64,000 nt of DNA, from assembly GCA_963969365.1 (NCBI GenBank), contig OZ017748.1, positions 3,593,001 to 3,657,000 on the forward strand, read 5' to 3'. This DNA comes from Asterochloris sp. CNOR1. Its lineage: Eukaryota > Chlorophyta > Trebouxiophyceae > Trebouxiales > Trebouxiaceae. Numbering within the stretch: the stretch's first letter is position 1; every line of letters starts with the position of its first letter. Positions 427-64,000 of this stretch are shown here, in pieces. Both the position numbers and the translations under genes were made by a program. The notes below the pieces were generated by a model. The model made no database searches. It saw only the letters and a program-made list of their open reading frames with translations, and had not been told where the DNA came from.

Positions 427-3400
427 TCAAGGGTCTGGGTCTGCTACCTGCAAAAGGATTGGTGGGCCGGGCTGCACGCCTCCACTGTTGGTGCTGATGG
501 ACCCAGTCCAGGAAATCCTGTAATCTGTCAGCTGGTACACCCCTGGGGCAAAAACCGCAACATGCAGCTGCACTACTGTGGTCTGACCAGCCCCAAGGGC
601 AGGCACATTGGCCAGGGTGCTCCCACACCACTGGTGGTCTGCTGTTGCCGGCAGGCTGAAGAGCCCGCCAGCGGTCGGGGTCACGCTTGCCAATGCGGCC
701 GAGATGCCGTGGGTCAGCGAGGGACTGCCCCCAGCGCCGGCTGGCTCCAGCTGCAGGCTGGCCTGAGGCGTGAGCAGCGGCGTCCTGGAAGAGCGGGGGG
801 TGGCCACTGCCTGGCGCGGGGTGGCTGGGGGGGCCCCAGCTGACGCCCTGCTGGCTTGGGGCATGCCCTGTGGTGTTGTGCTGTTGTGGCGCATGGCTGC
901 CCACCCGCCGCCACCTGCAGGCAGCACTGACGACACCAGTCAGGCTGGCAGCGTGGCCTCCAAGACGGTGGTCAGCTGTTGAATGTTGTGGCCCGCTCTG
1001 GAGGGCTTCAGGCAGGACCGTGAATGCACAGTCCCTCCCTGGTGGAGGCAGGCAGCCCCCCCAGCTCCCCATCATCTGCCTGCTCACTACAATGATCGAT
1101 GCCCTGCCCTGGCAGCATCCTGGATTCATGAAGATTCCACACAAAGCAACTGTCATGCTGCTGCAGGACAAGATGGTCCAGCTTGCCTTCATCTGCTGCA
1201 TCTCGCTCCGTCCCTGCCTCCACGCACAGTGACGTGGCTGTTTCCAGGCTGTTGCGCAGGTGCAGGGTGATAGGCGTGCAACACACTGCCTGCTGGCTGA
1301 AGTCGTTCTGCACTGCAGGCGGCTGCTGCACCACCACCCGGATGGGTGCAGACTCCTGCAGACAGGCGGCATGCTGGAGGCTGTGGCGGCACATCCAGCC
1401 ATGTGCTGGGACCCCTGGATATGCACGTGTCAAGCAAGCAGCTGCAACCTGCTTGAGGCACCCACAAGCTGCTGGCTCCAGCTGGCACGTCACCATCTGA
1501 ATGAGCCATCAAGGGCCATCAGCACAAGCTGTCCATGTCTGAATGAGCAACAACATTGTGCACCTCCAATCGGCAGGGAAGGAAGTGTGCTCCCCAGCGC
1601 TGCCTGCGCAAGGCAGTCGCTGGCACCTCCCAGACAGCCATCACCCCCACTTCAGGGGGCCGGCTGCCAGGCGCTGCTGCAACAACGACTCCGCTGTGAG
1701 CTTTGGGGCGCTGCCTTGACTGATGGCGTGGCAATGGTGGCTGCCGGGAGAGGCTCTGAGCACTGAAGTGGGCCAGGACGCTGGGGAAGGGGCTGGAGGG
1801 TGGGGCATCTGCAGCAGCAGCCAGTCTCTGTCCACATCCCGCGGCCTCTGCAATCATACTGGCAGCGCTGTGAGATCAGCTATGCTGGAAGTGGCAGTCC
1901 TGGTGCTGCACGAAGTGGGTCACTCTGCGCCCAAGGCAAGCCCACCTAGAGCTTGCTGCTGCGGCTCAGCATCTGGCATCGTGTGGTAGAACAGGGCATG
2001 CCTGCCGCCAGGCTGCAGCTTGACGCTGAGGTCCAGGGGAGGGCTGCACCCCGGGAGAGGGCCCAGGCAGAGGCCTGGCGCCTGCGGAGGGTGCAGCGGG
2101 GTCCCGGGGAGCTGCTCCAGGCTCCAGCCCTCCTCAATGCTGCTGAGCTGCCTGAGCAGGAGGGTGACCTGTGCCTGCAGCAGCATGGAAGCCATGGCGC
2201 AGGGCGCAGAGGCCGTGCAGCACTGTGCTGCCGCCCAGCAGGCACGCAGCTTGACTTTGGCCGCAGCAGCGGAGACGTTTGGGCCTCCAGTGGCCTGCCG
2301 AGGGTGCAAAGCTGGATGTCTCGGCACAGAAGCTGCAGCCCCCGTCCTGAGGCCCACCTGTATCTGGATGTCCAGTGCCAGGAGGCAGCGGAACAGGTGC
2401 TCTGCGCAGGGGCGCAGCGAGGCTGCCATGGCCAGGGCTGGCAGCACCTCCACGGTCTGCGTCATGCGTAGCACCCTGCGGAGGAGACAGACAGCCGTGC
2501 TGGTGGTGTGCAACAAGCACCGGAGACAGACAGCCGTGCTGGTGGTGTGCAACAAGCACCGGAGACAGACAGCCGTGCTGCTGGTGGTATGCAACAAGCA
2601 CCGGGGACAGACAGCCGTGCTGCTGGTGGTATGCAACAAGCACTGCTCACACTTGCAGGCCCTGTGCAGGTACAAGTACAGAGAGGCTGCTCAAGTGGGC
2701 AGCCAGCGAGGGCTGCATGTGAGCGAACTGCGTCTGGCTTCAACCAATTTGTAAGTTGCTTGGCCCCCACTGCTGTGATGTGGAGTCAGGGTTTGCTGCA
2801 GCTTCAGGGTTTGCTGCAGCTTCCAGCACGACTTGATGGGTCAAGATGCAGTGCTACACAAGCCCAAATGTGCTTGCAACAATTCCTGCTGTGAAGCAGC
2901 GCGAGCTCTGAAGAAGAAGCGGGCGAAGCAGGCCCGCCCCAGAATGGGCCCTCTGCCAGTGCTTCACTTGTCATGAGTTGGAAAGGCAATTGCAGCCATG
3001 CAGTGCATCTCAGTCAGGTGCTTTGAGCAGGTGGCCCCGAAGTGGCCACCATTCCCTGAGCAGGGCCTCACCTGTGCTTCATGCCATCCACCGGCGTGAC
3101 CAGCTGGAAGTACCACACCAGGTGGTACACCAATGTCCCGGGGCTGCGCGGGTGCAGCCAGAGGGGCCACCGTAGGGACTCCCCCGGTGCCAGAATCACA
3201 TTGGCCCCCCAGGCCACCACAGTCTGCCCACCCTTGAGCTGTGACTGTGTGGGCTCATCCGCCGGGCGCCTTGAGGTGCTCACCTGCCCTCGAGAGCGCT
3301 CTAGGGCAACTCCTGCACACCAGCAAGGGCACAGCTGGGGGTCCTTCTGTAGCGGTGTCCTGAGCCCGATGCGGCAGCTGCAGCTCTGCAAAGGGTGCGC

Positions 3401-6400: not shown

Positions 6401-9400
6401 CAGGGATCCGGGAAGCTGTGCAAGTTGCTGCTGTCAGGCAGGCTCTGTCAGGGCAAAACGTGCACAGACAAGGTAGTCGAGAGATGCGGCTGACACTGAG
6501 GGCCACACAACAGCTTCTCGTCAGGGCTGAAGCTGTGCATCTTGCTGCTGTCAGCCAGGCCGCGTCAAGGTACAACCATGCACAGACATGGTGGTCAAGA
6601 GATGCAGCTGACACTGAGCGCTGCACAGCAGCTTCTCGTCAGGGTCCAGCCATCAAGCCATCTTGTGGCGAGACAAGGGAGCCACCACACCTTTCTCCAC
6701 GCTGTGATTTGAAGCCTGACTTGTTGCCATTGGCAGTGCAGTCACCTGTAGGCCCGCATGCCCAGCTTCTGCTGCCGCACTGCGTTGTAGCGCAGCCCTG
6801 CCAGCACCAGGTGGAAGGCAAATTTGCGCACGCTGGGGGGTGACATCTGCAGCAGTGACAGCGCTGCCTGCTCCAGGAGGAGCGCAGCCCTCAGGGGCTC
6901 CTCCTGCAGGGCATTGCAGCCACTGTGCCGGCCGGGGACAGTGCACTGTCAGCCTCTGCCATGACAGCTTGACGCAGCTTTCATGTGCAGGCCTGCAAGC
7001 CCCTTGCCACAGGCAGAACGTGGTGGGCTTCATTGGCAGGAACATTGGGTAGGCGTCCCCTGTCACAGGTCACAGACAGCACGAGCCGGCTGCTAATTCC
7101 AGGTGACCCTGCCCATGGGCCCTCTCCCAAGGGCCAAAAGAAGGGTGATTGTGTTCAGGGATCACCTTGTGCAGGCAGCCTCTGCCGTGAACCAGCCAGC
7201 TTGCCCGCAACAAACACTCTGCACAAGGCAGCAGGGCACACTGCTACAGCAGGGGGCCTTGTGGGGCAGCAGAGCCCACCTGGAAGTGCGCCTTCATCAA
7301 GGCGTAATTGGCTTCTGCGTGCAGACCATGCTGCCGCGCATAGTCTGCCAGCAGGACCATGCTGCGCGTGGCCAGACGCACATGCTCCGCTGCCCGGGGC
7401 TGCTCCCCAGACCCAGGGCTGGTGTAGCGGTAGAAGGCTTCCTTGAAGTAGCCTGACACCTCGCTCATGGCAGCGTGGGCCATGAAGGAGGCGAGGCCCA
7501 GCATCTCCTGCACGGAACCAGGGCTGAATGTGATGGGGCGCTGCTGCAGGGAAGCGCCGCAAGCCCGTGGGCACAGCATAGAAGGGCGTCATAGTGGCCT
7601 GCCATGTTGCTCATGTCTGTGTTGGCTGTGCAGCAGGCCACATTCAGCATCTCCTGCACAGCCATGCGGGCACGTCTACACACACAGCTGTGCAAATGTG
7701 CAGCTGTGCAGGGCAGGGAGCCCTTCATAAGGGCTGGCGTCTGCAATTCTAGAGGCCAAATTTAGCACTTCTGCACTGGTAAGGCGACATCTGCGGCGCC
7801 CACTGCCCTGAAATGCTGCTGCAATGCCAGCCAGAAAGGGGGTTCTGGCCAGCGTGCTGCTCTGGCCCAACTGCACACACAACACCTCAAGCACAGCGCA
7901 GCTCCGACACCCCAAGGCAGTTCAGATCGCACCTGGGCCCCTGCATAGGCCTTCCAGGCCTTGTCAGCCCGAGCATCGCTGGACAGCAGCTTGAGGGTGG
8001 ACACAGCGGTCTCATAGTCCTGCATCATGAATGCCAGGTCCGCCAGCTGCCGCAGCTGCCCCTCCATGGAGGCTGCTGCATAGGGCTGCCCTACAACTGC
8101 GCCACGCGGGGTCTGGGACCCGTCACGGGCCTCCTGCTCCCGAGTGGCGGCGCTGCTCTTGTTGCGCCACAGCAAAGTCTTCAGCTGGTTTTTTAGCCCC
8201 CGCCTAGAGGACACCACCTGCGCAGCAAGGCAGGTGCAACTTTAAAGGCCATAGCAGGCCGCTGCTGCTGCCTGTGCTGACGGTTGCCCACGGGGTCCTG
8301 CCAACCAACAGCAATCTAGCATGCAGGTTGCTCGGCAGGCAGGTACCAGATCGATGCAGATGGCTGCAGCGCAGCGTCTGCCCAGCACAACCATCCTACC
8401 GCGACCTGCTGGTCAGCACCAAGCTCCTGCAGCACTTCAGAGGGCGGTTGGCCTCCCAATGCATGTAGGTGCGCTAAGCTAGCAGAACAGGCAGTCCACG
8501 TGCATAGAGACTTGCTAAATGGGGCTGCAGCCCATCAGTGCCAGGCAGGGCAGCCACGGTCTATCAGCTGTGGCTTGGAGGCAAATCGGCCCCCCAGTCT
8601 CAGGCCAACCTGCTGATTGAGGCTGCGGACCCTGAGCTCCAGGTGGGGCAGCAGGGTGCGCGTGGTGAAGGCCTCCAGCACCTTCTGCACCGCCTCCAGA
8701 TCTCCAGGGCTGAGGCGGACTCCCAGGCCACCCTTGGGCAATTTGGGGCGCTCTGCAGGCTCCCCAGCACCACCCCCTCTGGGCACGCCTGCAAGGGCAA
8801 ACAGCGCGCATCAGGTGCTTGATGGTTTGGGTTGAAAGCCAGCAGCCTGCCACGAAGCAAGCAACAGGAGATGCATGCAATAAGCGGCTTGCGTACTCCC
8901 CTCTCAGGCCAGAGTTGTCATGCACATTGACCCTTCTCGGAATTGCGATTGTGCCAGACCCAGCAAGTTGGCATGGGCAGACTGGTAACCCAGCACTCAG
9001 CCTCACAGACAGAGATTGGTGACCTGTGCAGCAGAAAGCTGCTGGTCACGGCTGGCCTCAGGTGCCTGCGGCACATTCACTGTCACACGTCTCCCAGCAT
9101 ATGCTGCATCAGGTTCCAAAAGTGAGGAAAATGCTGGTGATCACAGGTGCAGCCTGGCAGCTTGCCTCGCAGGTGCGTCTGCCAGAAGGCCTCCATGTTA
9201 GCGGCAGGGGGGGAGGAGGCTACTGCAGGAGGCCGTGTGTTGATGCGCAGCAGCTGGCAGTGCGTCGCCCCAAGGCTGGCCTGCATGGTCTTCAGCATCT
9301 CCTCTGACCTACAGTGGCAGAGCAGCAGCAGTCACCAAAGCCAAAGAAAGCACTGGCCGGAGGATCACCGTGCTCCAAGGGACCTGCGGACGGGCATTCT

Positions 9401-10898: not shown

Positions 10899-11190
10899 GC
10901 TGTTTCAGAGTGCTTTATCTGTGATGCAAGGGGTCAGGCTCAAGATGATGAGACTGCCTTTCGAATAGAACAGATCTGGCAGACATTGTTGAGCATCAAC
11001 TGCCAGCGCTGGCCCATCTGGTCCAACCTACGGACAAGAAGTTTGACCAGGAAATTCAACCCGTATCAGAAGTAGAGCTAGCACTCAACAAATCTGCTTG
11101 AATGAAATCCGCGCTGAGGAAGCCAGTCACGAGGAGGTGCTGGAAATGTTCGCATGATTTCTTGGGCGAGATGGGCAGGCTGGGGCAGTA
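10899..11190. other. Short spacer upstream of TRAPPC8
   Basis: This 292-bp gap lies between the TRAPPC8 start codon and the stop codon of the next minus-strand gene. It must hold the TRAPPC8 promoter and 5' UTR and the 3' UTR of its neighbour. It contains no recognisable coding segment. Confidence 0.5.
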
Positions 11191-14100
11191 TCATCTGCCA
11201 AAGCTTCCACCAAAATCATCTACATGTGGAGTGGCAACAGCCTTTCTGAGGCCAGGAGCCACTGGCAGACTGACTTTGCTGGTCTTGGGAATGGTGCGGT
11301 CCCGTGAGTTGAACACCCTCGAGTCTGCAAGCTCATCCCGGATGAGGGGAAGAATGGCAGGTGCTGCCTTACGCACCAATGCTGGTGGCGCGCCCCAGTC
11401 TGAGCTGCTCAGGATTGACAGGTTTGCATCAGGCGTGGGGGGCTTCTTAGGGTCAGCTGCAGCCGCCTGCTGCCTGCCCCGCGGCCTGCGTCCACCTCTG
11501 GGCGGTCTGGCCTGCGCGGATATCTGTGCAGAGGCTGTAGTGGTGACAGCCGACTCAGCTGTCGCCATGCCAGCGCCCACGCTGCCAACAGCAGCAGCAG
11601 GACTGGGGTCCATCTCCTGCTGCTGAGGGGCGGCTGGCTGCATGGCTGGGCGCTGCTGCTTGCTGCGCGGGGCACTGCTTGCGGGGGGGCCATGTCGGCT
11701 GCCAGGCCGGCTGGCAGGCCGGCTGAACCGTGCTGCATTGGCTGATGACTGGTTTGGCTGAGGAGTTGCGCTGGCATCCTTGGCGGCCGCCTTGGCCATA
11801 TGCCGTGCCAGGTCACGCTTGGTCATGTGGTCCCCAGTGGCCAGGCGGCGAGGCCCCTGCTGGACAGCCTGGCCAGCTCTGCAGCGCAGGAGGGTTACAA
11901 CTCAAAGTCCAGTCGATCGGGCAAGAGGCGTGGCCCCTGCTGCACAGCCGGTCAGCCCTGCAGCGCAAGAAGGGCAGCCCCTGTCCTGCTGCAGCTCCAA
12001 GTAGCCACACTCGGGAGCGCAGTCACATGCGATCCAGCTCATTGACACTAAGCTGGCCACTAGCGCACTCGGATGGGCACCCATTGACCATGTGAAGTGG
12101 GCAGCAGCTTCTGAGTGTTCAGCATTTGGTCGGCATGGGCTGTGTGCAGGGATCCTCTATCAGCTGGGTGCATCACCCGCACTGGCCACTGGCGGTGCAG
12201 CCCCTAAACGGTTGCTGGCCGAGCATTCCCCGCTACATCAGCCTGATGACAGACTCGCAGGCCACTTCACCTAGGGGGTCGGCTTGACACATCACATGCA
12301 ACCCTTGATCAACCTGGAAGACACAGACTGCGCCAGTCCCACTTTGTCTGCGCCTGCCTTTTCAGCCTGACCCATGCAGGTGCCCACCTGAGCGTGCACC
12401 CGTTTGTCAGCTTGATGGTGTCCATCACAGGCGGCTGCGTCTCCTTCTTATCCTCCACAAAGTCTGGCCCATCCACTAGAGCCCCACCAGTCCGCTGCTT
12501 GCCCACAGGCTTGGCGCCCTCTGCGCCAGCCGCAGCCAGCTGTCCTCCCTGTTGCAGTGACCCCTGTTGCTGCCCAGCCACAGCCAGCTGGCCAGAGGCT
12601 GTCTGCTGCTGCCCTGGCACTGGCAGCTGTGCTGCTGCCAGCTGCTGCTGCACATCCTTGGCCTTCTGTGGCCGACCCTTGGTGTCTGCAGCAGCCTGCA
12701 TGCTGACCGTGGGGGCTGTCGCTGTGGACGGCAAGGTCTCGGCGTCTAGGCTGCTCATCACAACCACCTGCAGGCAGCGTGAAGCAACAGTGCTCATGAG
12801 GCTTTGGGCAAGAGCCTACTGCTTACTGAGCGCGCACATGTACATGATCTGTCACCACCAGACATGTTGCAGCAGTTTCTGACAACTCCCTGCACCTTTA
12901 GTCCTTGGCGTGGTGTCCTCCACAACCCCATCAACTGGCATGCCGCAGCAGCAGGCTGACACATCTGGCCCATGTGATCACAACAGTACTCCTGTTCCAC
13001 AGCTGCTGCAGACACACACGCCGGTCTGAGCATCTTAAATCTTTACAGCTGATACTTTACATACCTGGCCCCTGTGGTTGTGTCCTTCTTGGTGGCTGTC
13101 CTCAGAGCGCACACATGGAGGCACGCAGCAGCCTCACCAGTGACCCAGCAGTCCCATGTGGTTGCAGCCATGCTTCTTCCCCAGCTGTCCCTAGAACTCA
13201 CAGCTCAAAAGGCATTTAGCAGCGGCACCAGGCACCCACCTGCCCCCTGTGGTCATATCCATAATCCTTCCCGCGCAGCTGCTTCTGCAGGGTGTCCAGC
13301 CGTTGGCGCTCCTCCTTATCTCGAGCTGCCATCTCTGCCTGTTTGGCCAGCTGCTTGCGCCTGCAGGCACCAGACCAGACCTGAGGGATGGCAGCTGCCT
13401 TGGGTGGTCTGGGGCAATCCAGACAGCATAACATGCATAATTTGCCAGCCAGGGGATTGTCGTGCAAGACGGCAGCCAGGTGGTGGCCCCGTGCACGCCA
13501 CAGCACTGATCATCTCAAGGAGCGCCAAGACGGTTCTGAAGGCAGCACTTAGTTTACTATGTCCTGCTCAGACGACATGCTTGGAGTGGCGTCACATCAG
13601 TGCAGGACAGCAAGCCTGTCACGCCAGCCGCTGTCAGCCTGTTAGAGTCTGATGAACAATGAGCCTGGGCACCCCAAGGCCACTCTGATGTCAATCTCAT
13701 GTGCAGTCTGTCCTTCAGATGCTGCTGCCTGCCAGCGTGTCCACAGGCACTGCGTACGCTGCCCCAACGCAAGTCTTGAAGACCGCTTGATGTCAGCTTC
13801 CTTGCGCAGCCTCTCCACATGCTGCTGCCTGTCAAAGAGCACACGGGCATGGTGTTGGTTCCCACCTGATGTCAATCTCCTCTCGAAGCCTGTCCTCCAC
13901 CTCCTGCGTGGACCCCCTCTTGGTCAGTGGCTTTCCCCCTGCCGCTCTGTTGGGCGCCCTCCCAGGCGTGATGGCTGCTGTGCTCGGGACAGGTGCGACG
14001 CTGGCACCTGCATGGGAGACCAGACGTCTCTGCGCTGCATTGTAAGATGCTGAGCGCTGCCTTGTGCCAAGACGATTCACAAGCATCATGACTTTGCAGC

Positions 14101-24873: not shown

Positions 24874-25051
24874 CAGTTAGCACAGGCATTGTAGGGAGTC
24901 AGTCAGAGTTTCAACTGTTCAGGAGGCCATTGCAGAACATCCACACATTAGCAAGATGTCCCCCTCTGTATGTCTTTTTGAAAACTGCTACAAACTTTAC
25001 TGTCAAAGGAACAGGGCAACAACAATAAGCCATTGTAAGTGGTGCTTTTCA
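24874..25051. other. Tail-to-tail spacer between kinesin and CSTF2
   Basis: Two convergent genes end here within about 180 bp, so their 3' UTRs probably abut or overlap. The exact end of CSTF2 is uncertain and its last coding bases could fall in this spacer. Confidence 0.5.
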
Positions 25052-36316: not shown

Positions 36317-36482
36317 CATGCTTTCTTTCTGCAAAATGCATGCCTGAGAGACCATCAACGAATTTCATGCCCACTTTCATGCCTCTGGCAAGCATAGGGC
36401 CAGTGCAGCTGCCACATCAATGGAATCAAGAAATTGCACAGCATGGAGGGGGAAACAGCAAGGGTGTGCAGGACACAGCACT

Positions 36483-43860: not shown

Positions 43861-44030
43861 CCCCAGGCTCCAGGATCAGGTGAGAAACTGTTGGGAACGT
43901 GACCTAGAGTTGTGCCATTTTTCCCTCGCAGCATTTATCACCGATAGCTGTCGGTCAGAGATCGACTACCTCCCTGAGATCGACCATACATCTTTCTGTG
44001 TGGCTAAGGGTAGAGGTGCAGGCCCTGATC
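43861..44030. other. Short spacer between PIG-B and the surface-protein gene
   Basis: This 170-bp gap separates two plus-strand genes. Both the PIG-B 3' UTR and the promoter of the next gene must fit here or overlap. Nothing else is evident. Confidence 0.5.
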
Positions 44031-47000: not shown

Positions 47001-50000
47001 CCCAGCAGGCCCTGGTCAGTCCACCTCAACTGTGGTCTCCCAGGCCACCAGCATGCCTGAGCAACAGCCTGGGCAGCCAATTCTTTCAGCACCACTAGCC
47101 ACCAGCTTGGAGCCGCCTGCTGAGCCTCCCACACCCTTTGCACCTCCTGCCGGCACAGCAGCCACCACCCTGGCACCCAGCACAACTGCCTTGATGGCGT
47201 CTCAGCAGGTTGCACACCCGCTTGTGCTCAGTGTCTCCATGACTTTTTACCCAAGCAAGCAGCAAAAGGCCGCTGCACTGCGCCAGGTCCTGCTCACAGC
47301 CCCAGACAGCGTGCTGCAGCAGACCAGCATGCTGAATGGGTCAGTCAACATCACGGGAGTCACCCTCAGGTGGGCTGCCTTTGCTATGCTTCTGTTTGTT
47401 GACTCTTGCTTTGCATGTCATTGAGCCATGACGTACTGCAGCATGGCGCTCTCTCCAGTGATCGCACTGATCTGGATGCATTGCAGCATTATGCTTCCTC
47501 AAATTACACACAGTGACAGGCATGCCCTGCAGAATGGCAGCTTCACCAATCACAGCGGTGCCCACATCGAGCAACATCTCAGAAGCAGCAGCCAGTAGCA
47601 GCTGGGGCAGTTCGCCACCGCCGCCTCCTCCCCCGCCACCTTCGCTACCATCCACTGTAGCAGCCTCCAGCCCACCACCACCACCTCCCCCACCACCGTG
47701 AGTCCTGAGCAAAAGCATTCCTCACAGTTTGCAGATGCTGAGATGGTTGACACTTCCTCCCAAAAGCTGCAGGCCGCCGCCTCTGCCAGGTAAACTCCGC
47801 CACAGGAGGCAGCTGCTGGCGGCCATCCTATAGCTGCAGACCATCTCTGAGTTGTTATCATGCTGGAAAGGAGCCCGTGATTGAGTTTCAGATGAGCCCA
47901 CCAATCATGCTGTGACCTCTGAAAGGCAGATATGGTTGGCTGCCGTGAAAACCTCTTAGTCCCCCTCTTGAATGGCACATGCCATCTTGACTCACATGCC
48001 ATCTCTAGGGCAGCCCACCTTCAGCAGAATCAGTCGCTGATCAAGCAGCCCATATCTCATCTCAGGCAAACGGGCAGTCAACGAAGGGTAAGGGCTGGTG
48101 TCAGCATTTAAAGTCCCCACCCTGAGTGCGGGCTGAGTCGGTGGCCGGACCTCTGCCAGCCATGCAGCGCCTAGCCATTGCAGCTCTTTGCAGCGCACTC
48201 TCGGCCAGCTGGGGAGCGACCGCTTCTGTACAGGCCCTACACTATGGCGTAGGTGAACTTCACGCGAGCCCGCCTGCTGCGTGGGGCTGCCAGGGATGAT
48301 TTTGGGAGTTGAGCAATGCCATCTTGCATGGGGGCCTGCAGCTTTTTTGGCCCGGCAGCACCACATGGCCCATCTTCACAGGCCCCACTGGCCAGGCAAT
48401 CACACAATCAATGCTGCCTGGACAGCGCAGGTCTCCATGCAGAGATTGTCCTCTGGTGGCATTTTGCAGTGGCGCCTCCAAGCCGCCCCTATAGCGGCAC
48501 ATGACCTAAGCCACCTGCCCCCTGCACTGACCTACAGGCTCCAGGCACTTGCTCGATGCAGCCAGTACCTCAGCCATGGCAGCCTTGTTCGACGAGTCAG
48601 CCGGCATGAGCGGGGACACGAACTATGTAGGCTTGGGCACAATTGCAGCGGCGCCATCCACAACCAATGCTACCTACAACGGCACGGTGAGGTTGTGGGG
48701 TTTCATCCAGTGCCGCAGGTTTAGGTCAGTTGATTGGATATGTTGCACACCCACATGGACATACTGCAGCACGCTGGTTGCCAGGCAACAACCCAAATGC
48801 CCTCGCTGCATAAGTCTGACCAGACAGGTTGTGGTGCCATGGCCCACCTTCTGCAGCATGTTCTGTGCCGCAGTCAGCTGACCTACACGCTGTGCTCCTC
48901 AGGCGCAGCACGCTGATTGCCTTGGATTCCATCAGGACCCTTCTGTTACTGCGCGCCTTTGCACGCTGACCTCCTTGCCCACCTTCCCCGTTTTCCTGTA
49001 CCTTGTCCAGCTGCCTCAACCCTCATTGTTTGAGACTCCCCAGCTAGGCCTGTCACTACATGCTGTCCTCTGACACCAATTTCCTGGTGCCCTGCAGCTC
49101 CTGTACTAGTGCATGCCCTGCAACCCCAGCCGTTCGCATGCCATGCTGTGACAGCTTTCACCCTGTGCCCCTGTAGATAATGTGCTACGGCGTCCCCTGC
49201 GACACCACCCTGGCCATGGCTGCCTGCATGCCCACAGCCTCTCTGGACATGCCCACCTATGTCAACTACAAGCAGGTCCTGGGCACCCTGACATACTCAA
49301 GGCCCTACATGGTGAGGCACCGCCTCAGAGTTGTGACTTTGCTTGCCTCCACTTCAGGGCAGGAGGGCCACACATGTAGGCACCAGCCATAGAGTGGTCT
49401 CGATTAGGAGCCAGTAGCACTGCGTGCAGAACACCAACCTTCCCCTTGGCCCCCGAGGTCCACTTGCTGCCTGCAGATGGGCGATTGCTCCAACGGCACC
49501 TGTGACATGGCAGTCACCGGCCCTGGCTCACTGGACCCTGACAACTTTGCCAAGCTCAATGCTACCTCCTACACAGTGGCAGTCACGGTGAGGACCTGGA
49601 GCAGCCCTGCTTGGCTTGAACTCTGAGCACCTGACCTGACCTGCAGCATGCGCAGCCAGCAAGCTAAAGTAGCACATCAAGGCCCTGACTCTGCGCGCTC
49701 AGTCACCCCCAATTTAGGCGCCATCCGTTAGCTGCCTGAGCTGTGACCCTGCTGGTGTGGCCATTGCAGTGACCTCCCGCCGCTGCCTCCTCAAGCTGTG
49801 TGATCCTGCTGTGCAGGCTAACAGCGAGACTGAGCCTGTAGATGTGTGGTATCTGCCACAGTCCTGCACTGGCGCCACCAGCCAGGTGCTGGTGCACTCC
49901 ATTACCTACGACATCACCCCACCCTTCCTGACCATCATCAAGCTCACTGGGGACACCAACACCACCATCATCAGCACTGAGCCCTCTGACTACTCTGCAG

Positions 50001-53000
50001 TGACTGCGGTGAGGCACAGCTCTGAAGTTTCTGTCCTTGTTACTCAACGTGGAGCAGACCACACAAAATTGCGGCAGAGGGCGCAATGCCAGCTTGCTGA
50101 GATGCCTCTTGAGAGCTTGGATTTGCTCACGTGCTGCAGAGGCGCCACCTTCTGAGCACAGCCTGGGCCAGCATCAAGGCAGCCACAGGCGCCCGCAGGT
50201 CCCTCCTGGCCACCACCTCTGAAACCCTCATCTTTGAGTTCTCTGAGTCTGTGGTGGGCTTCAACGAAAGCAGCATTGACGTGACTAATGGAGAGGTGAG
50301 GGCATGCTGCATATCACACATGCTTTGCACAGAGCAGGTGCCCCCCATTCCTGGCGTGGCTGGCTGCAAAGGACACCAAGCAGCAGCCAAGCATGATATG
50401 CTTTGCAGCTATAACTTGCTGTTGAATGCACTGGATCTTGCCTGGCTGCACTCATCTGCAGCTGCTGGCAGATCATGTGCCCTCCCCAGCCGGGAGCTGC
50501 AGGGAGAGTGGCCAATTCAAGCATATGCTCTGCAGGCCTTGACGAGTGGCTGCCCTGCTGCAGATCACCTCTTTCAGTGGCAACGATGACAACTCCACCT
50601 TCATCGTTGTCGTCGAGCCTACCAACGGCGCCTCAGCCATCACGGTTGCAGTCTCTGAGGGTCAGCCCCTAGACTGGACTCCTCATGGCGTTGCAGACAG
50701 ACGTCTCCAAAGAAAGGGCTCCTCAGCCGAGATCTTGTCTGGCGCAGTTTCTCCCAGAGCTTGTTGCATGGACTCCCTTGCCTTGTGCAGCATGTGCCGT
50801 CATAGCTGCTCAGCAGCAGCCTCCCTTGCCGCCCTGCAGCAGACTGTGCCATTGCCGATTGCCAGGCCTCGTGAAAAAGGGGACCTACCACCCTTCTGCC
50901 CTGCAGACGCCTACACAGACCTCGCTGGCAACACCGGCTCAGCCAACATCGACTCTGTGGTCGGCACCAGCACTGGATCCGCCACCACAGAGTCCTCCAG
51001 CTCCAGCGCCAGCTCAGGGGCAGCCAGCTTGGGCAATGGCGCTATCATTGGCATTGCGATTGGTGGTTTCTTCTTTCTCCTCCTGCTGATCCTGCTCTTC
51101 CTGGTGGTGAGTTGCTCTGCTGTGTGAAACGCTACGCTGCGGCATCAGAGGGTCTGGTGAAATGTGTGGGGATGTCAGAGGGGCATCTTAAGCCCTGCGC
51201 GTGCAAAAGCTGGCTCTTCTGTGTTGGCTGCACATACTCTTTCTGCTTGCCTGGTGTTAAGTCCTCTGAGGCTGGTGCTGAAGTTCTTGGGGAGGGGCGT
51301 TGTGAGAGGCCTGCTCTCTGTCTGTTCTTCCTGGTGGTCAGCCAGGGCTGCGTGCTCTGGTTTGCATGCTTGATCCTGCAGCAGTGGGGCCTGACCAGCT
51401 GCTGTCAAGTCTGTGTCATATGCGTGTTCCCCAATTGCTACATAGCTGAGCATGAAGACTTGAGCGACGAGTGCATACGGAGGGCATGCTGTCGGGGTAG
51501 GCAGATGCCAGCTCTGCACCTAGGCTGCCAGCTTTGCAGACCTACAGCCAACCCCTCCAGCGTTGAGTCCGCCTGGCAGCGCCATGCCTGTTTCTTTTGA
51601 GCTTCCAGTAGCTTAGAGGGTCCCCCAGCCTGAGCCAACCGGTACAGTTGGGCTATGCTGCCTCTGAATGAAACCTAGACAGCAGCTGCATGCACCACAA
51701 TGCACTGGAAAGGCACGACGCAGCAGCTGCCGCGTGCGCCCCACCGTCCTGGAATGAGGGCACGAGGCAATCATTGCTGCACGCGCCCCGCTGCAGATGG
51801 CCACCGCATTGAGGCGCAAGCACCGCAAGGAGACAGAGGCAGAGCAGGCTGCAGCTGCTGGCAAGGGCGCGCCTGGCGCAGGGACGGGTGTTGCTGTGAC
51901 TGCCTCGGCTGCAGGAGAACCTGTGGCAGTGCCAGCCACCGACATTGAAGGTGCAGCCAGATGAAGGGCTGCATGGGAGGGGCTACGCACATGATGCACC
52001 CGCTCAGATGATCGCTAGCCCATTCAGCTTGACGCTAGCTGGAAGACAGCTTGCCCAGCCAGCAGCCTGCATGCACATCCAGCAAAATGGTGCATCTTCT
52101 GTCTGGACTTAAAGGTCGACACTGCTGCAAATGACCACCCCTCACACAGTATGTGCAAAGTCTCCCATGAAGCAATGTTTGAAGTAAAGGGACAAATTGT
52201 AAAGCATGCATGATTCCTAAACAGGTCAATGTGGCTCACATTGATTGTGCCTTGATGTTGTGCGCAGGTGGCAAGGGACTGCGCAAGCTGACGCCCCAGA
52301 AGACAGAGCCCCCTGCAGGCCAGGGCCTGCACTCTGAGTTCAGCAAGTGAGGCATTACTCAGCTGCACTAGGGCCCACAGCTTCCCCTGGCAGCGTTGCT
52401 CATCTCTCCACGTAAAGCATGAGCTGCTCCCTGGGGCCGTGGCCTATCTGGTCCCAGGCTGTGCTCTGACAAGCATAGCATACAGCCCTCCTTCAGATGG
52501 TGTCACGCTGCAAGGTGTTGCCTGCAGAGCCAACATGCGCAGTTCCAAGAGTGAGCTCCCTGTCTCGCGGCCAGCTGCTTCAGCCAGCGCCACCAACCCT
52601 AAGAAGGCCACCCGCTTTGGAGGGGTGAGCTGCGCACTGCTTCCGACGTGCTGTCCTTAAGCAGTCTGCCTTGACCTCAAGCTACACTGCATGGAATGCT
52701 GCTGCTGCTGGCTGCAAGTCGCCTTCAGTTGGCATACAATTCGCTGCTAAGCGCCACCCCTGACGTGTGCAGGTGCTGCCCTCTTTCCTTTCTTCAGGAG
52801 GGTCTGCTGACTTTGGGACGCCAGCTGCCAGCTTCACCGCAGGCTCGTCTGGTCATGGCCATGAAGTCCCTGCTGCTGTTGCCAGCGAGGACGAGCCTGA
52901 CAAGTATGGGTCAGGTAAGCGCTATCACTGTGGTGCAGCATTCATGCTGCCCCTATGGAAAGCTTGATCTCTGTAACGGGTTTCAGCAAAGGAGATCTCT

Positions 53001-53767
53001 GCTGCACAGCTCTGGCATGGGCAGCACTCTGCTCTAGCCCAACTGCAACAGTGAGGCAGGCGTGTGGCTCAGCTGACAGCACTCTCTGCCTGGCTGTCCT
53101 GTTTGTTGACAGCCGCATGCACTGGCCTGCCGTGGAGGGCTGATACCTCACGCTGAGGCGCGGCCAAGCCCACCATGAGCTGACGCTGTCCAGACCACCT
53201 TGCACAGGCAGCTATGATGGCCCCATCCTGCGCTATTCCAGCAACCTGGAGGAGATTGCCCCTGTGAAGGCCAGCAAGGCCGCTGAGGCCAGCCCGTCCA
53301 AGGTCAATACGCCGCCACCCTCTCATGCCAAGCCTAACCCCCTGTTCATCACCTCCTCTGGGGTGAGCTCCCTGCATGATGATGTGCGTCTTGCTGTGCG
53401 TCCCGCTGTGGCATGGCAGCTGGCAAAGACATCGCTTCTGCAGAGCTGCACTGGCAGGCTCAGCGAAGTTACGCCAGATGTGGTGCTCTCAAGTCATCAT
53501 GATCAGGCAGCGCCTGCACCTGTCAGCACTGCCCTGCACATGCAAACTGTAGCCACCAATGCCTGGCTGCAGGTGACCTCCAGCAAACTGAGCGATGCGG
53601 ACATGTCCAAGTTTGCCTCCCCGAATGCTCTCTACTCTGGCAAGACAGCAGGCAGCCATGCATGGGACAGTGTAGACCTGTCAGAGTCCCAGGCGGCTGC
53701 GGCAGAGCCCGCCCCCACTGAGGACTTCTATTCACCCGTTATCTCCAGGCGCCAAAGCAACGCCTGA
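44031..53767 (+). CDS. Large type I membrane protein: signal peptide, Pro/Ala/Thr-rich ectodomain, bacterial-type Ig-like repeat, TM and tail
   Basis: I do not recognise a named orthologue. Exon 44031-44115 encodes a signal peptide (MAMVHQTPILSLLLLVLPVV). Exon 44791 onward gives a Cys-rich module (QCSGIDSPNFCADQ, CNSMGVRC, GTCCFYQR). Long Ala/Thr/Ser/Pro-rich stretches follow (about 45120-45480 and 46495-47210), with modules such as LNLEQLKEVMAMAAADLE and VLSVSMTFYPSKQQKAAALR, then two polyproline runs (47620-47697) ending exactly at a GTGAGT donor. Downstream exons give GDTNYVGLG, Cys-rich CYGVPCDTTLAMAACM and CLSCDPAG, then an Ig-like unit split over exons: ETLIFEFSESVVGFNESSID, VTNGE, ITSFSGNDDNSTFIVVVEPT and YTDLAGNTGS, the pattern of bacterial Ig-like (Big_12/13) domains. 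A TM helix (IIGIAIGGFFFLLLLILLFL) lies at about 51044-51105. A basic start (RRKHRKETEAE) and a Ser/Pro-rich cytoplasmic tail run to the stop at 53767. It could be two genes, but splice donors support one. A cell-wall adhesion or sensor role is inference. Confidence 0.72.
45190..45480 (+). repeat. Ala/Pro/Thr-rich degenerate repeats
   Basis: Within the surface-protein ectodomain the phrase AAGMPL(T/M)AE(S/T)AAT(L/Q)APE recurs: AAAGMPLTAESAATLAPEDR at about 45260 and AAAGMPLMAETAATQAPEGS at about 45390, with SATLAAEPAAAQAPKG between. It is an in-frame coding repeat of about 44 codons, typical of a stretched, probably O-glycosylated, stalk. Confidence 0.75.
47620..47697 (+). repeat. Two polyproline runs
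   Basis: Two tracts of nine prolines, separated by SLPSTVAASS, are encoded by CCX repeats and end just before the GTGAGT donor at 47698. Similar tracts separate domains in algal hydroxyproline-rich glycoproteins such as pherophorins. That comparison is family knowledge, not proof of homology. Confidence 0.8.
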
Positions 53768-54035
53768 GCTGCTGGTCTTCTGTATAGGCCACTTGTACAG
53801 CAGGGATCCAGTACTGCAAGTTTGTCTGCCAGCCCCTCACTGCAACCAGTTGATGCACTGGATGCCGTGCCTTTCGCAAAGTTTTATCCGCTTGCTTTCC
53901 ATGACAGTCAAGAGATGCAGACATGATGTTCTTGATCAGGGCTGACCCTGTTAAAGAGCTAGCTGCAAAATGTCGTGACCTATTCGCCCATCTCAAGATC
54001 GCCCATCAATCTCGAGATCGCCTCAACCGGGCCGC
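53768..54035. other. Spacer before the ShKT gene
   Basis: This 268-bp gap lies between two plus-strand genes. It contains a short near-repeat (CATCTCAAGATCGCCCATCA followed by ATCTCGAGATCGCC, about 53990-54021) just upstream of the next start codon, which could be a regulatory direct repeat. No coding potential was recognised. Confidence 0.5.
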
Positions 54036-58085: not shown

Positions 58086-61000
58086 CTACTTGGCGTTGAG
58101 CTTCTGCATGAGGATTTTGTTCATCACGCCAGGGTTAGCTGTGCCTTTGGACTCCTTCATGCACTGCCTGCAGCCAGTCACACACATATCATCAGTCAAC
58201 AGGTTGATGCGGTCTGCAGAAAAACTGCAGAGCAAAGGCAGAACCATAGGCTGCAGGCAGTCACTGTCACCCATGAGGCTCTTGCAGGGGAGTAACAGAG
58301 CATTGGCAAAGCATGCAGGCCAGTCGTGAAGAAGCCATCAGGCTTCTTCAGGGGTAGAACACAGCCCAGAGAGAGGTATGGGCATGCCACAGTCCTTTCA
58401 CCAGCCAGAGCTCACCCAACAAAGAAGCCCTGCAGCTTGGTTTTGCCACCTCTAAACAGCTCCAGCTGCTGGGGGCTTGCAGCCAGCACCTTGTCAACAA
58501 TGGCCTCGATCTGCGCCGGGTCAGAGATCTGCATGAGGCCTTTGCTCTCCACAAACTTCTTCACTCCTTCTACTCCCTGGCCCTGCAGGGATCATGGTGG
58601 CAGTGAGAAGGAGCATACAAGCTGGGGCCAGAACTTCAGCAATGGGCAGCCATGCCAATGCTGTAAGTTGCTTCAGCGTCAGCAAGGCAGCTGTCAGATA
58701 TGCATGAATGAGAGGTCCAGAAGGGGTTGCACAGCAGGCAAGCTTTAGCCAGAAGTACTATCATGCTTGACAAGAACAGACGACTCTGTCACGGTGCAGC
58801 TTCCGGTGCCTCACATGGGCGCTGCCATCCCTCCTCCCAGAGCACAGAAAGCAGGGCAACAAACCCTAGCATGGGTTTGGCAGGGTTGCCTGCTTGACAA
58901 GGCTGCATTGCAGATGCGGCAATGCCCGTCAACATGCTGCACCTGTGCAGTCCCCACCTGGAGCAGGCCTGGCAGGATTTCCTTCCCAATTTTGCCACTG
59001 ATAGTGCCGTCCTCTATGAGCCCAACCATCTCAGCCAGTGTCTCAGGCTTCAGCTGCAGCTGGTGCATGCCTATCTTCTGCTCCTGCACAGCCAAAAGCA
59101 GCACTGTGGGCACCAATTGACTCATGACACTGCATTAACTCAATCACAGGCAGCTCAGCTGCAGCCCCGAAACATGCAGTTGCAGGCAGGATCCAGGTAA
59201 AAGCGCTCAGCCCGGTGCCCAGACATAACCTCTGGGAGTACTCTGTACGCCTGGAGAAGCATTCCAGCCGCCCAGACAGACGTCGTGTGGGCAGGCAAAC
59301 CATAGTGGGGCACTGAGAGCCTTCTCATCCAGACAGGTAAGCCCCAGAGACATCCACACTCACCTTGCAGAAGGCAGTCAGGTCGCCCATGACCCAGTTG
59401 GCAGAGAGCTTTGGGGAGGCCCCTGCTGCCAGCACAGCATCAAAGTACTGTGCTGTGGGCAGCTCGTCGGCCAGCACCAGCACGTCTGCTGCCGGCAGGC
59501 CCAGCTGCCGATACTGCCGCCGTTTGTCTGCTGGCAGCTGCTGCATAGATGCCTGCAGAGCAAACTAATCAGCGTTTCCATTCATTTCATTCACTTGCAG
59601 GGGTGCCCAGTCTTGCATGCGCTGGTACTTGCCGCCTGCATCTTTCCCAGAACTTATGACCATTGCGTGTCTGGATTTGCTTGCAAGTCACCATGTAGAC
59701 TGCGGGTAGCTGCAGCAACGACGCCCGCAGCGCACAGGGGCAGGACCTTGATGCCGCACCACTCACAAGCTTGCTTATGGGACTGCCGGGCTGGGCTTGC
59801 CTGCGGAAGCTGGCTAAAGAGTGGATGTCCACACAGGCTCCCAGACTTAGGGGACCAAATGCAGCAGCAGTACCCTCCCAACATCTGAGTGCAGGTGCGA
59901 GTGCACCAGACTGATCAGCAAAACACAGACAAACAACCCCTCACATGCATGTGCCTGCAGGGGCACTTTTGCTGTAAGCACTGTGGCCTGGAACGCCTCC
60001 AAGGCCAGCACATGATGTCCCTCAGCACAGCATGGATTTTGGCAGAGCTGCCCCACCATGGACAGCACCACCAGAACGTGTGCCTGCTGTTTGTGCATGA
60101 GGCATGCACCCCCGGAGTATGTAGGCAGGGACAGCCAGGTTGTGAGTGCGACCACATTGAAGTGCAGGTGGCCGCAGCAGCCCCACTGCCGACCTGCAAT
60201 CTTTCAATGAATGAGTCCGTGACAGTCAGTTCCGGAAGGTCAGGCTCGGGGAAGTAGCGGTAGTCTGCGAGCCCCTCCTTCTTGCGCATGCTGCTGGTGG
60301 CCTGCCTTCCCTCATCCCAGAGGCGTGTCTCCTGCACGACCTGGTCAGCCTGGCCGTCCTCAATCAGCTTCACCTGCAGGCAGGGAGCAAAGGACCGTGA
60401 TGCATTAGGTACTTTGGTGCTTTTTTGTGTCGGTAGTGCAGCCCATCTGCTGCACGACCTGGTCTGCCTGGCCGCCGTCCATCAGCTTCACCTGCAGGCA
60501 GAGTGCTGAGACCATGCATCACAATGTCCTGTCTCCTGCAGGCAGCCCGCTACACAACAGGCAGGGAGTGAAGGACCATGCTGTGGCCTGCCTGCAGCAG
60601 GGGGGATTGGTGCTTCTTCAGGTTGGAGGTGCAGCTCAATTCCCTTGATCAGCCTCACATGCAGGCAGGGAACAGAAAACTGATGCTGCACTGCAACGAG
60701 GCCACGGGAAGAGACCTGACCACCAGATCAACCTGCATGTGCTCAGCAGAGGCTGCTGTTTGCTCGTCGTCGCAGCCATATTGGCAAGTAGGGTTCATGG
60801 AGGCCCCTCCAGCAGGCAGTGCCAGGCAGCAGCCTTCAGCAGCACCTGGGGTGCCTTGCAACTCTCGATGAGCTCCACCTGTGGGTAAGGAGCAAGGGCA
60901 TCGGGATGTGCAGGGGCCCAGCTGCAGCAGAGTGTGGCCATGCTGGTTCATTGGCGTGCAGCGTGTCTTCTAATACCAGCAGCTCTCCTATGCCACCTGG

Positions 61001-64000
61001 ATCTGAGGGGCCCTTCCGGAGTGACAAGGTTTGCAGCCTTTAGGATTTTGAAGTTCATGCAAGGTACGTCTCGCTTTTGCTTCACACGTGTACCTGCTCT
61101 TTGCTTTCAGCAAAATGGCCAGGCAGCTGTTGGGAGGCAGCCTGGGTGGATCTGTGTGCACCACCCTGCAGCACGCCAGCTGATCCCAAGCTGCAGCAGT
61201 GGCAGTGTAGACGATCTGCTTCTGGGCAGCGGGTCTGGACCAGCTGACAGGCAGCCTCCCAGCGGGCTCTAAAGGGCACATGCTGGTGACATGAGACAGC
61301 ACGAGTGGCACACATAGCAGACGTGATGCTGCATGACCAGCCATACGAATTTTTGACCCCGTCCAGCTCCTCACGCATGCCACAGCCACTGCTGCGCCCC
61401 AGGCTGCGGACAGTGTGAACCAGTTCCCTCGGGGTGAAGTAAGGGGCAGACAGCCTTGTCCCGTCAGCAGTGCCCTGAGCTTTCAGTGTCACTTACCAAA
61501 CACAGAATAAGACTCTGATTTCAAATAACCATTAGCGGCGTGCCCTGCACATGCACTCACCTGACGGCTGATCTCAAAGTCAATGGCCTTCTGCATGGCT
61601 GAGAAGGAGTTCATGTTCTTGACCTCCACCTTGGTGCCAAAGCGCTCCCGGCCCCGCGGGCGCACCGACACATTGACGTCGCAGCGTAGTGTGCCCTCCT
61701 GCAGCACAGGGAGGCAAGCTGTGCAGACAGGCACTCTCTGGGTGCAGCATACACAGACACCCTGACGTGGCAGCACAGAGTGCCTTCCTCGTGTGTTCCG
61801 CTGATTTCGCCCCGGGATGCACTGAGGAAACGACAGCACAATCTGTTGGGGAGGCACTTGCGGAGCAGCATTCTGATATCTTCTCCCCTGAGGTGCACTG
61901 AAGCAGGACGCTGCAGCGCAGCATGCCCTCCTGCATGCCGAGATGGTCGGCTGTACAAAGGCGCTGGCTGGTACATCCCTCATAATAAACAGCAGGCGAG
62001 GCGTCATGCACTCCCCTGCAGGCTGCAGGTACAACAGTCAAAAGGCCGTCAGAATCAAGTGTTGCTCACAATGCACAGCATGCTGCAGTCCTGTCCAGTG
62101 CACCTTGCTTGTTTAGACGCAGGGTTTCACAGGCAGGCGGCCACCCAGAGACAAGGCATGCAGCTGGGATCACAGCCAGAAATGCATTTCCATGACAGGC
62201 ACAGCCTGCCCCTGCAGTCTGCCTAGGCCATAGCACAAAGCTATGCAACACCCATCTCCCACATCTCAGAGCTGCAGACATGTTGCGGTCACACGTCTAG
62301 GTAGACCATGATGCGGCACAGCTCAGCCCTCACATTCCTGGGCCCACTGTCGTGCTGCAGCTGTCTAGCCCTCAGTGGCAGCAGTCAGAGGCGCACAGCC
62401 CTGACCAGCAAGGCCCGATGAGGAGGCCATGCTGCAGCGGGAGCGGCAAGCTCGATCAGACTCACCGACATGTTGCAGTCTGAGATGCCCAGATAGACCA
62501 TGATGCGCCGCAGCTCAGCTCCATACGCGGCCGCCTCCTGCCCGGTGCGCATGTCAGGCTCCGACACGATCTCCAGCAGGGGGATGCCTGCCCTGTTGTA
62601 ATCCACCAGGGAGTGGCTGGAGTCAGACAGCTGATTGGCGCCGCTGTGGGTCAGCTTGCCTGCAGGGAAGCAAGGGATGGGTCTTGCCTGCATGCTCTGA
62701 AAGCTTACAGGGCAGCTTGCTTACGGAGCAGCAGTAAATTTAAAAGGCACCCTGTGACCAGATTGTGAAGTACTGGCTTGGACAGGGGATCAGCCCCACT
62801 GCGTGTCAGCCTGCCTGCAGAGCAACAGATGTGTTCAAGGGCGGCCTGGCATGAAATGAAGGTGTGCTAGGACTGTGCAGCTGGTCAGCCCAGCAGTGGG
62901 CTCACATGCCTGCAAGGGAGGGAGATACTTCAGGGTGTGCACCAACTGCATGCCTAAATGTGCCAATGTGCAGACTGCAGCAACAGAGAGCCGCAGGTCA
63001 GATAATGTCTCAGGGAACACCCTGTGGGCTGAGGGTAGAAAGACGGGCCCGAGAATGAAGCAATGACCTTATTGTGAATTAAATGCACAAGGGAGCTGGG
63101 TGTAGGTCAGCAGCTGCTGGGCAGAGTGACTTGCAGTGCCCTGGCAGGCTCAGAAGCTGGAGAGGCATGGTGCCAGCGTTGCTCTGCACTGCATGGCAAT
63201 GTGGTCTCCTAAGCTGACAGGCAGCAGGATTTGCTTGTAGGCTACACAGCCAAGCAGAGCAGGCACCCAGCAATTGCCCAGATTTGCAGTTCAGGCGTCA
63301 TGCTGCACTCATCTGTGCCCTCTCCCAGGTGTGACACATGCAATGAGGCATGCCAGTAACTCATGTGCGTACCTAGCATACTGCACCAAGCGAGGACCCT
63401 GCCACGCAGGACAAGGCAGCAGGCAGGACCTGCTAGTGCGCCCCACCAGCAGCTCCTCACAAAGGCAGCCAATGAGACATGTCAGCAACCTTTTCCTGGC
63501 TGATGCAAGCAATCTGAAAAGGCTCAGTGCTGGCCTACACATGTGACCTGGCAGAGTCCCAGATTCTGCAGGCCATTCCCACCTGCATCTTCCTCCAGGT
63601 GTGCCCGCGTGATGCCGATGTGCTTGGGCTCCCTTGCTTTCCCAACCTGTACCTCAATGGTGCCTGCAGCAGGAGAACTAGGCTGAGCAGTTTCTGTTCC
63701 CGGCCAGTCTGATCACGCCCTTCTTCTTTCAGGCAATTGGTGTTGGCATGGAGCCAGCGGCTGCAGCAGGCCAGACATGGCCTGCCTAGGTGCTGTGAGT
63801 CACCCAGGCACTAGTCTGCTGCTTAGGGGCCGGCACAAGGTTCTGCTGTGGAGTCAGGGTATTCTGCTGAGGGCCGGGCATGGACAAGATCTGCTCTTTG
63901 CTGAAAGCTCTGCTCGGCAGGTCATATGCGCCTCAGTATCAAGAGCCACGAGGATTACAACCACTCCAGCTTCCATAGGTAGACGCAGCCTGAGAACATC
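58086..64000 (-). CDS. GATB: Aspartyl/glutamyl-tRNA amidotransferase subunit B (GatB), 5' end beyond the window
   Basis: GatB is part of the organellar GatCAB enzyme, which converts Glu-tRNA(Gln) to Gln-tRNA(Gln) in plastids and mitochondria. Phased exons in transcription order are 63646-63583 ([14 protein letters not shown]), 62659-62466 ([37 protein letters not shown]), 61698-61561 ([29 protein letters not shown]), 60373-60194 ([23 protein letters not shown]), 59552-59364 ([20 protein letters not shown]), 59083-58958 ([15 protein letters not shown]), 58582-58415 ([20 protein letters not shown]) and 58167-58086 ([20 protein letters not shown]). The whole middle and C-terminal (YqeY-like) part is intact. 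The N-terminal part of the family, ending FYPDLPKGYQ, is not in the window, so the gene must continue to the right. Its introns hold the clearest exon echoes of the window. Confidence 0.93.
60332..60500 (-). repeat. 52-bp exon-edge duplication in GatB (48/52 identical)
   Basis: Plus-strand 60332-60383, which covers the start of the exon 60373-60194 and its CTGCAG acceptor, is repeated without gaps at 60449-60500. I count 48 identical bases of 52. The copy keeps the acceptor and the reading [15 protein letters not shown] against the exon's [15 protein letters not shown]. Weaker echoes lie near 60635-60665 and 60860-60890. Confidence 0.93.
61650..61935 (-). repeat. Two echoes of the Gat[13 protein letters not shown] exon start
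   Basis: The exon starts CAG|GAGGGCACACTACGCTGC (61698 downward). On the same strand, about 61793-61750 reads GAAGGCACTCTGTGCTGCCA ([14 protein letters not shown]) and about 61932-61890 reads CAGGAGGGCATGCTGCGCTG ([13 protein letters not shown]). All three lie in the same orientation within 250 bp. Confidence 0.88.
62279..62518 (-). repeat. Echo of the GatB exon end before CNMS
   Basis: Plus-strand 62491-62518 of the exon 62659-62466 (AGATAGACCATGATGCGCCG...) matches the intronic 62299-62326 (AGGTAGACCATGATGCGGCA...) at 25 of 28 bases. The adjoining TGTTGC(A/G)GTC blocks at 62471 and 62281 also match. The copy lies 3' of the real donor. Confidence 0.88.

Follow-up and report, generated by a model that had tools for sequence, protein, structure and literature searches.

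Here we describe short, same-strand copies of exon edges, referred to below as echoes, that lie within the introns adjoining those exons in a 64-kb stretch of the genome of the green lichen alga Asterochloris sp. CNOR1 (the window; contig 3, positions 3,593,001-3,657,000). The echoes are real and are not confined to the window. They were surveyed in a sample of 324 kb, consisting of the window and 26 further stretches of 10 kb, which amounts to 0.6% of the genome (56.4 Mb in 21 contigs, 18 of them 2.0-4.5 Mb in length). Gene models were obtained from a self-trained gene finder, trained on the same 324 kb, which returned 61 models and 473 introns with a median length of 328 bp; typical exons are ~140 nt and typical introns ~330. 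The donor sites of the 473 introns resemble CAG/GTGAGC and the acceptors CTGCAG/G (the slash marking the splice point), with T, G and C at acceptor positions -5 to -3 reaching frequencies of 0.89, 0.95 and 0.98, values that self-training may have sharpened.

Eight gene models lie in the window. The first, on the minus strand with 27 exons (427..14792), comes from the gene finder and probably merges two genes, a coiled-coil gene with its exons from 11275 upward and TRAPPC8 below; the first 1329 of its 1829 residues include a TRAPPC-Trs85 Pfam match at residues 503-942 (E=1.6e-69). Echoes derive from the acceptor junction at 11878 of the coiled-coil gene (11919..11956) and, in TRAPPC8, from the acceptor junction at 7507 (7593..7659) and the donor-side exon tail at 8610 (about 8510..8560), all on the minus strand. 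The plus-strand kinesin model, with 16 exons (15216..24873; Pfam Kinesin, first 435 residues scanned), carries plus-strand echoes of the donor-side exon tails ending at 16815 (16959..16989) and 18500 (18676..18712). It is followed by a minus-strand CSTF2 model (25052..28754; gene finder and Pfam), probably incomplete at its 5' end, in which the acceptor junction at 27984 and the donor-side exon tail at 27668 are echoed on the same strand at 28046..28084 and 27475..27523. Two plus-strand models come next: a BSD-domain gene (29508..32460), assigned by Pfam when scanned merged with its neighbour, and that neighbour, a TPT/SLC35E3-like transporter (33352..36316; Pfam and gene finder), where an echo of the exon tail ending at 34892 (about 34925..34974, plus strand) sits within a decayed multi-copy stretch at ~34855-35329.

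The remaining three models are a TRM11-like gene (36483..40856, minus strand), an Alg9-like mannosyltransferase probably joined in one model with one or more downstream genes (41469..53767, plus strand; first 474 residues scanned), and GatB (58086..63663, minus strand), whose 5' end falls outside the model. The TRM11-like protein matches jgi/Astpho2/3993 with 75% identity over 90%, a value no higher because the model misses or misplaces some exons. Its donor-side exon tails at 38095 and 39630 are echoed on the minus strand at about 37935..37984 and at 39455..39551 (63/97 identical), and the end residues of both exons are present in jgi/Astpho2/3993. An echo scan of the 41469..53767 model at a score of at least 16 found none. 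In GatB, minus-strand echoes derive from the acceptor junction of exon 62466-62659 (62781..62827; 35/47 ungapped, with CTGCAG/G kept), from that of exon 61561-61698 (61752..61789) and from the donor-side exon tail at 62466 (about 62277..62327).

Since the gene finder bars in-frame stops by design (split codons excepted), the absence of stops from the models is no evidence in their favour; the evidence is the Pfam matches and the proteins of the JGI database. Pfam domains were found in six of the seven translations given (TRAPPC8, kinesin, CSTF2, BSD with TPT, Alg9-like and GatB), three of which comprised the first part of the model only. The seventh, the TRM11-like translation, had no match in Pfam and PDB searches and matches TRM11 proteins. 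JGI proteins contain the eight terminal residues at 26 of the 34 GatB and TRM11 exon edges, a check on residues rather than on the exact splice base, and independent Asterochloris protein models have the exon end residues at each of the six echo-bearing junctions examined in these two genes. The GatB protein of the window is 99% identical to jgi/Astpho2/3991, a label that we take to denote Asterochloris glomerata Cgr/DA1pho. The models are nevertheless imperfect: neighbouring genes have probably been merged in some, exons are missing from TRM11, and the GatB model includes a false exon at 60459-60491 that is itself an echo.

That false exon belongs to a series. In the GatB intron above exon 60194-60373 a unit composed of intron tail, CTGCAG-like site and exon head is present three times, at ~60491, 60655 and 60880, with falling likeness to the acceptor junction of the exon starting at 60373. 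All are on the minus strand: 60446..60506 (54/61 to 60328-60388), a decayed copy at 60643..60674 (27/32) and an older one at 60834..60898 (45/65). The preliminary description had given the first of these as 48/52, and the copy is indeed present. It is not counted among the window echoes below because the gene finder took it for an exon; in jgi/Astpho2/3991 it is absent, and that protein has neither 60459-60491 nor an added exon. Like introners (PMC9860276), such a series is a repeated source of intron sequence, but introners copy themselves into many genes, whereas two pieces of GatB, of 221 and 766 bases, each matched only themselves in the 56-Mb genome, in a search that skips very common words. 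An introner origin is unsupported by this result, and the earlier observation that copies adjoin their source, unlike mobile introners, agrees both with it and with the introns of other genes, which match only ~2 of 380 edges.

To place these cases on a quantitative footing, the 50 nt at each exon edge were aligned with the adjoining intron, its splice sites removed, and a Smith-Waterman score of at least 16 was called an echo. Of the 473 introns 425 were usable, 48 being dropped as shorter than 100 or longer than 1500 bp; exons below 60 nt and the 12 nt at either intron end were also left out. Same-strand copies in the adjacent intron were found for 42 of 381 exon heads (acceptor side) and 43 of 374 exon tails (donor side), so that the two sides are struck about equally. 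Introns of like length from other genes gave means of 2.15 for heads and 2.25 for tails, with a maximum of 6 each in 20 draws, and the reverse-complement control gave 6 and 4. At a score of at least 20 there were 19 heads and 28 tails against 0.10 and 0.00 in other-gene introns. In this sample, matches to the flanking exon are thus far commoner than matches to exons of unrelated genes, the very comparison that had been proposed as a control when the copies were first noticed. The effect is specific to the side and to the edge: the same edges compared with the intron at the opposite end of their exon gave 6/316 and 3/316 where ~2 are expected (1 and 0 at a score of at least 18), and exon interiors 60-110 nt away gave 3/154 and 2/142, as against 28/154 and 22/142 for the edges of those same exons.

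In total there are 85 echoes on 755 exon edges (11%), with ~4.4 expected by chance, and because of this expectation single weak echoes of score 16-17, such as those at 62814, 26585 and 12964, are uncertain. Could the whole pattern be an artefact of faulty gene models, low-complexity sequence or misassembly? The models are self-trained, one echo was called an exon, and the genome is rich in CTG and CAG words. However, the other-gene, reverse-complement, other-side and interior controls share this composition and these models and yet lie near chance, the rate climbs to 30/161 and 28/158 (versus 1.5 and 1.0) when only strongly coding exons are taken, the models are backed by Pfam and JGI proteins, and duplicates made in assembly cannot account for copies of 65-90% identity. 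For most of the echoes the exon-edge controls already refute an artefact, which we regard as scarcely credible. Chance and low complexity as such are ruled out by the far-offset and inverted comparisons given below, together with the other-gene, other-side and exon-interior controls.

Echoes occur in 80 of the 425 usable introns, in 32 of 59 intron-containing models and in 19 of the 27 stretches, the window included. The window itself has 21 echoes in 20 of its 92 usable introns and in seven of its eight gene models. Nine genes had been named at the outset as bearing such copies; the eight models cover eight of them, and the ninth, a putative ShKT gene, is without a model. Identities run from 42/42 to barely detectable, in keeping with the range first reported, and the copies are of widely differing age. 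The statement that introns are built from such copies is, by contrast, too strong, for only the 80 introns carry echoes and 6.6% of intron bases lie within detectable local copies. Introns with echoes have a median length of 508 bp versus 309 for those without, and none of the 75 introns of 100-200 bp carries an echo, a deficit that geometry alone may explain.

Alignments come within 4 nt of the junction in 31/42 acceptor and 33/43 donor echoes, and the offset from the real junction has a median of 129 bp (69-353 bp, 5-95%). The intron flank was copied along with the exon edge (score of at least 12) in 12/31 acceptor and 10/33 donor cases, compared with 2.5 and 3.5 in swapped pairs, with no flank detectable in the rest, and in the clearest cases the exon part and the intron part fill the offset as a head-to-tail unit would (65+56 for an offset of 119 in stretch L009). 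The initial claim that the splice site is often included holds for part of the copies, which include the intron flank as well, and that of serial duplication holds for the GatB intron.

The other-side counts near chance show that whole exons are as a rule not copied, and whole-exon duplication is rejected as a general explanation on these counts and on the broken frame of 34 of 66 echoes, although four events classed as 'JJ', one of them the GatB echo, may be exceptions. The same evidence bears on the notion that echoes are functional, either as alternative (mutually exclusive) exons or as decoy splice sites under selection. Some features are compatible with it, in that the AG is kept at 18/42 and the GT at 15/43 echoes, 32/66 are without stop or frameshift in the aligned stretch, and the gene finder accepted one GatB echo as an exon. 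Yet the far edge of the exon is copied at about the chance level, so an echo usually comes without a second splice site; about half of the echoes have lost the frame; the JGI GatB protein does without its echo; and the splice dinucleotides are kept less, not more, than in neutral simulation. Mismatches between exon and echo are nearly flat across codon positions (0.22/0.19/0.28), and this, with the broken frames, indicates that echoes decay as non-coding DNA. Functional alternative exons are rejected as a general rule, and a function of either kind is very unlikely.

Local duplication is not restricted to exon edges. In the window there are 69 ungapped direct-repeat segments of score at least 20 at offsets of 4-500 and two more at 500-750, as against none in a control of 8000 offsets (20,000-27,999). 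Eighteen other 10-kb stretches, from 18 contigs, contain 108 direct versus 3 inverted segments at 4-500 bp, and only two of the 18 are without any local duplication of this score. From the direct, inverted and far-offset counts it follows that the duplication acts on the same strand and over short distances, and that it occurs across the genome. Clear young head-to-tail cases include one in stretch L014 (offset 68, length 108) and one in L022 (25/25). The former, at 545-720, is the youngest junction duplication of the sample, a 68-bp unit present ~2.6 times at 99% with the GT intact at the echo junction. Two arrays in the window are intron-internal, both on the minus strand: a duplication at 6412..6644 (period 118, two copies, 83%) that is not exon-derived, and a young tandem array at 2483..2643 (period ~42, four copies, 95%). 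Local copies are also present in the ShKT region (~54-58 kb), where there is no gene model and four open reading frames gave no Pfam match; they lie at 54978-55125, 55297-55394 and 56336-56768, and one pair, at offset 48, has GTGAGC/GTGAGG at its end, resembling a duplicated donor. Stretch L015 (C13:500001-510000) has a G+C content of 0.523 and no local duplication of score at least 20, and might belong to the low-GC viral insertion described for Asterochloris (PMC6652019).

When segments at offsets of 20-600 were merged into events, those with few distinct triplets being dropped, 262 events remained: 98 intron-intron, 123 pairing an exon or junction with an intron, 26 exon-exon, 10 exon-junction or junction-junction, 4 intergenic and 1 exon-intergenic. 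All 26 exon-exon offsets are divisible by 3, although not all are independent, several coming from one kinesin repeat; the corresponding figures are 38/98 for intron-intron, 18/63 for junction-intron and 21/60 for exon-intron events. Exons thus show a frame filter, and the distribution and the frame pattern together are what uniform mutation with a protein filter leaves. Within the kinesin gene, degenerate in-frame coding repeats occupy 21549-21814 (offset 39 and multiples), and longer in-frame coding repeats occupy 21973-22775 (offsets 207-642). In three further cases both copies were called exons by the gene finder: L013 6467-6600 and 6854-6987 (134 nt, 91% identity, offset 387), L010 5597 (offset 125) and L021 6113 (offset 68). 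These pairs are possibly true exon duplications or miscalled echoes.

Tandem duplication has a place in existing models of intron origin, and the preliminary description drew a link to one of them, in which a duplicated exon segment containing AGGT becomes an intron (Rogers 1989 and Hellsten 2011, as described in PMC4974935). Related cases are the duplication of proto-splice sites in Drosophila (Lehmann 2010, PMC2891723) and exon duplication with intronization in the same genus (PMC2891723, PMC2809761). What the AGGT and proto-splice-site models share with the echoes is duplication in place, with splicing cancelling the consequence for the protein (PMC4974935, PMC2891723); the mutation class is the same and is plainly active in Asterochloris. 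In those models, however, the duplicated exon segment becomes the whole new intron, and no such register is seen in our sample. The start of the intron does not resemble the downstream exon in register, nor its end the upstream exon: in 882 comparisons the best match was 20 of up to 40 nt, versus 21 in the control, a test that would miss old, decayed cases. Moreover, the median distance between an echo and the real junction is 129 bp, in introns whose median length is 508 bp. The link is therefore unsupported for recent events, and creation of these introns by AGGT duplication is highly improbable.

The reading that we favour, with a probability of about 0.78, is that echoes are short DNA segments straddling a splice junction that were duplicated in place and then hidden in the intron by splicing. 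Short direct tandem duplications would arise along genes, with echo offsets mostly of ~70-350 bp. A duplication inside an exon would survive only in frame, and one inside an intron would be neutral; one across a junction would yield two copies of intron flank, splice site and exon edge. If splicing then used the 3'-most acceptor or the 5'-most donor, the normal mRNA would be kept and the event would be silent, and with exons of ~140 nt and introns of ~330, exon definition would be expected to choose this outer site. The inner copy would stay in the intron and decay, leaving the intron one unit longer, and repeated events would make introns longer and produce a graded succession of exon echoes. 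We infer from the sequence that the event is a tandem duplication at the DNA level, that the echoes are passed over in splicing and that the process is still going on. The likeliest mechanism is ordinary short tandem duplication with the protein acting as a filter, and one specific to junctions is not needed. The earlier proposal of intron growth by junction duplication is borne out insofar as serial adjacent copies are seen; a dedicated junction mechanism is not required, as uniform duplication with splicing rescue comes near the observations.

Several observations weigh against this account. The offset is filled to at least 0.8 in only 14 of 47 echoes, with a median fill of 0.57. In simulations of uniform duplication with neutral decay and junction rescue, which rest on guessed rates, 0.78-0.89 junction events occur per intron-internal event, whereas 1.26 were observed; at offsets of up to 200 the values are 0.59-0.72 and 1.01. 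Intergenic events also look rarer than intronic ones (4 in 20.7 kb versus 98 in 213 kb of intron), in a small sample and with a gene finder that merges genes. A second neutral simulation, in which exon identity and offset were matched to those of the echoes and which is crude in its single indel rate and single constraint scheme, predicts a flank extension score of at least 6 in 79% of acceptor and 74% of donor echoes, compared with 60% and 27% observed. Because flanks are less alike than neutrality predicts, part of the copies may be exon-only.

These discrepancies are the substance of an alternative in which duplication is targeted to splice junctions, for instance through the spliceosome, R-loops or stalled transcription, and the copies are limited to the exon. 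Besides the excess of junction events, it draws on several echoes of high exon identity without a detectable intron flank (in L017, L020 and L023, and at 9484 in the window) and on the donor-side flank deficit. Against it, the agreement with uniform duplication is rough but leaves only a modest unexplained junction excess of ~1.4-1.7 fold under a crude model, acceptor and donor counts are equal, the intron flank is copied in a good share of cases, and intron-internal duplications are nearly as numerous as those involving exons or junctions (98 versus 123 of 262). Targeting of this sort is unlikely.

The splice sites of the copies speak to their fate. Relative to the matched simulation, the AG was kept in 12/25 echoes (48%) versus 60% (P=0.14) and the GT in 10/26 (38%) versus 58% (P=0.036). 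Ungapped flank identity was 0.49 versus 0.52 simulated on the acceptor side (P=0.29, no clear difference) and 0.35 versus 0.51 on the donor side. It is thus the donor side that departs clearly from neutrality, the acceptor side doing so in neither flank identity nor AG retention. In a fairer comparison, where the exon positions next to the junction played no part in choosing the echoes, the numbers are small: AG was kept in 8/21, with per-site identity of 0.55 against 0.63 for nearby exon and 0.52 for nearby intron, and GT in 7/23, with 0.52 against 0.63 and 0.36. Either selection against decoy signals, or units that end near the junction, or too simple a simulation could account for this apparent erosion. 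A bolder proposition, that junctions are favoured sites of duplication in this lineage, with exon edges copied into introns again and again, and that each copy starts as a perfect decoy, which the cell has to ignore and which selection erodes faster than neutral, seems to us rather doubtful; were it true, silenced decoys would pile up in introns like a sediment and form a lasting reservoir of cryptic splice sites.

The nearest precedent is the RdRp gene of potato, in which an existing intron-exon junction was duplicated in tandem (Ma, Lan and Niu 2016, PMC4974935). There, too, the unit joins the 3' side of an intron to the 5' side of the exon that follows, and the copy inherits the branch site, the polypyrimidine tract and the 3' splice site (PMC4974935). 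The outcome in potato was a new intron, using a cryptic donor, and an added exon (PMC4974935), whereas in Asterochloris the copy lies inside an old, growing intron; and the potato case concerns one gene (PMC4974935), compared with 80 of 425 usable introns in our sample. For A. glomerata, a genome of 56 Mb has been reported, 98% of it at 56-62% GC, with 9 introns per gene (PMC6652019); the genome sampled here is consistent with it in size and GC. Among the matches listed in our literature search, consisting of titles and the beginnings of abstracts, with subscription papers outside its reach, no description of intron growth by serial junction duplication was found. Junction-spanning tandem duplication is already published for one potato gene; its occurrence as a form of intron growth in many introns is apparently new. 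Gao and Lynch (2009) reportedly described duplicated segments within genes, often involving introns, as well as new introns. The likeness lies in short duplications inside genes; decayed echoes of a single exon edge as a standing part of introns are not mentioned in the passages of PMC4974935 and PMC2809761 that cite that work.

Junction duplication of this kind would offer a simple, countable route to longer introns at no cost to the protein, and a genome in which to follow it, where each event leaves an exon-derived fossil of known source. The echoes would also provide natural tests of how the spliceosome distinguishes a genuine junction from an almost identical copy close by, and of whether selection removes decoy sites.

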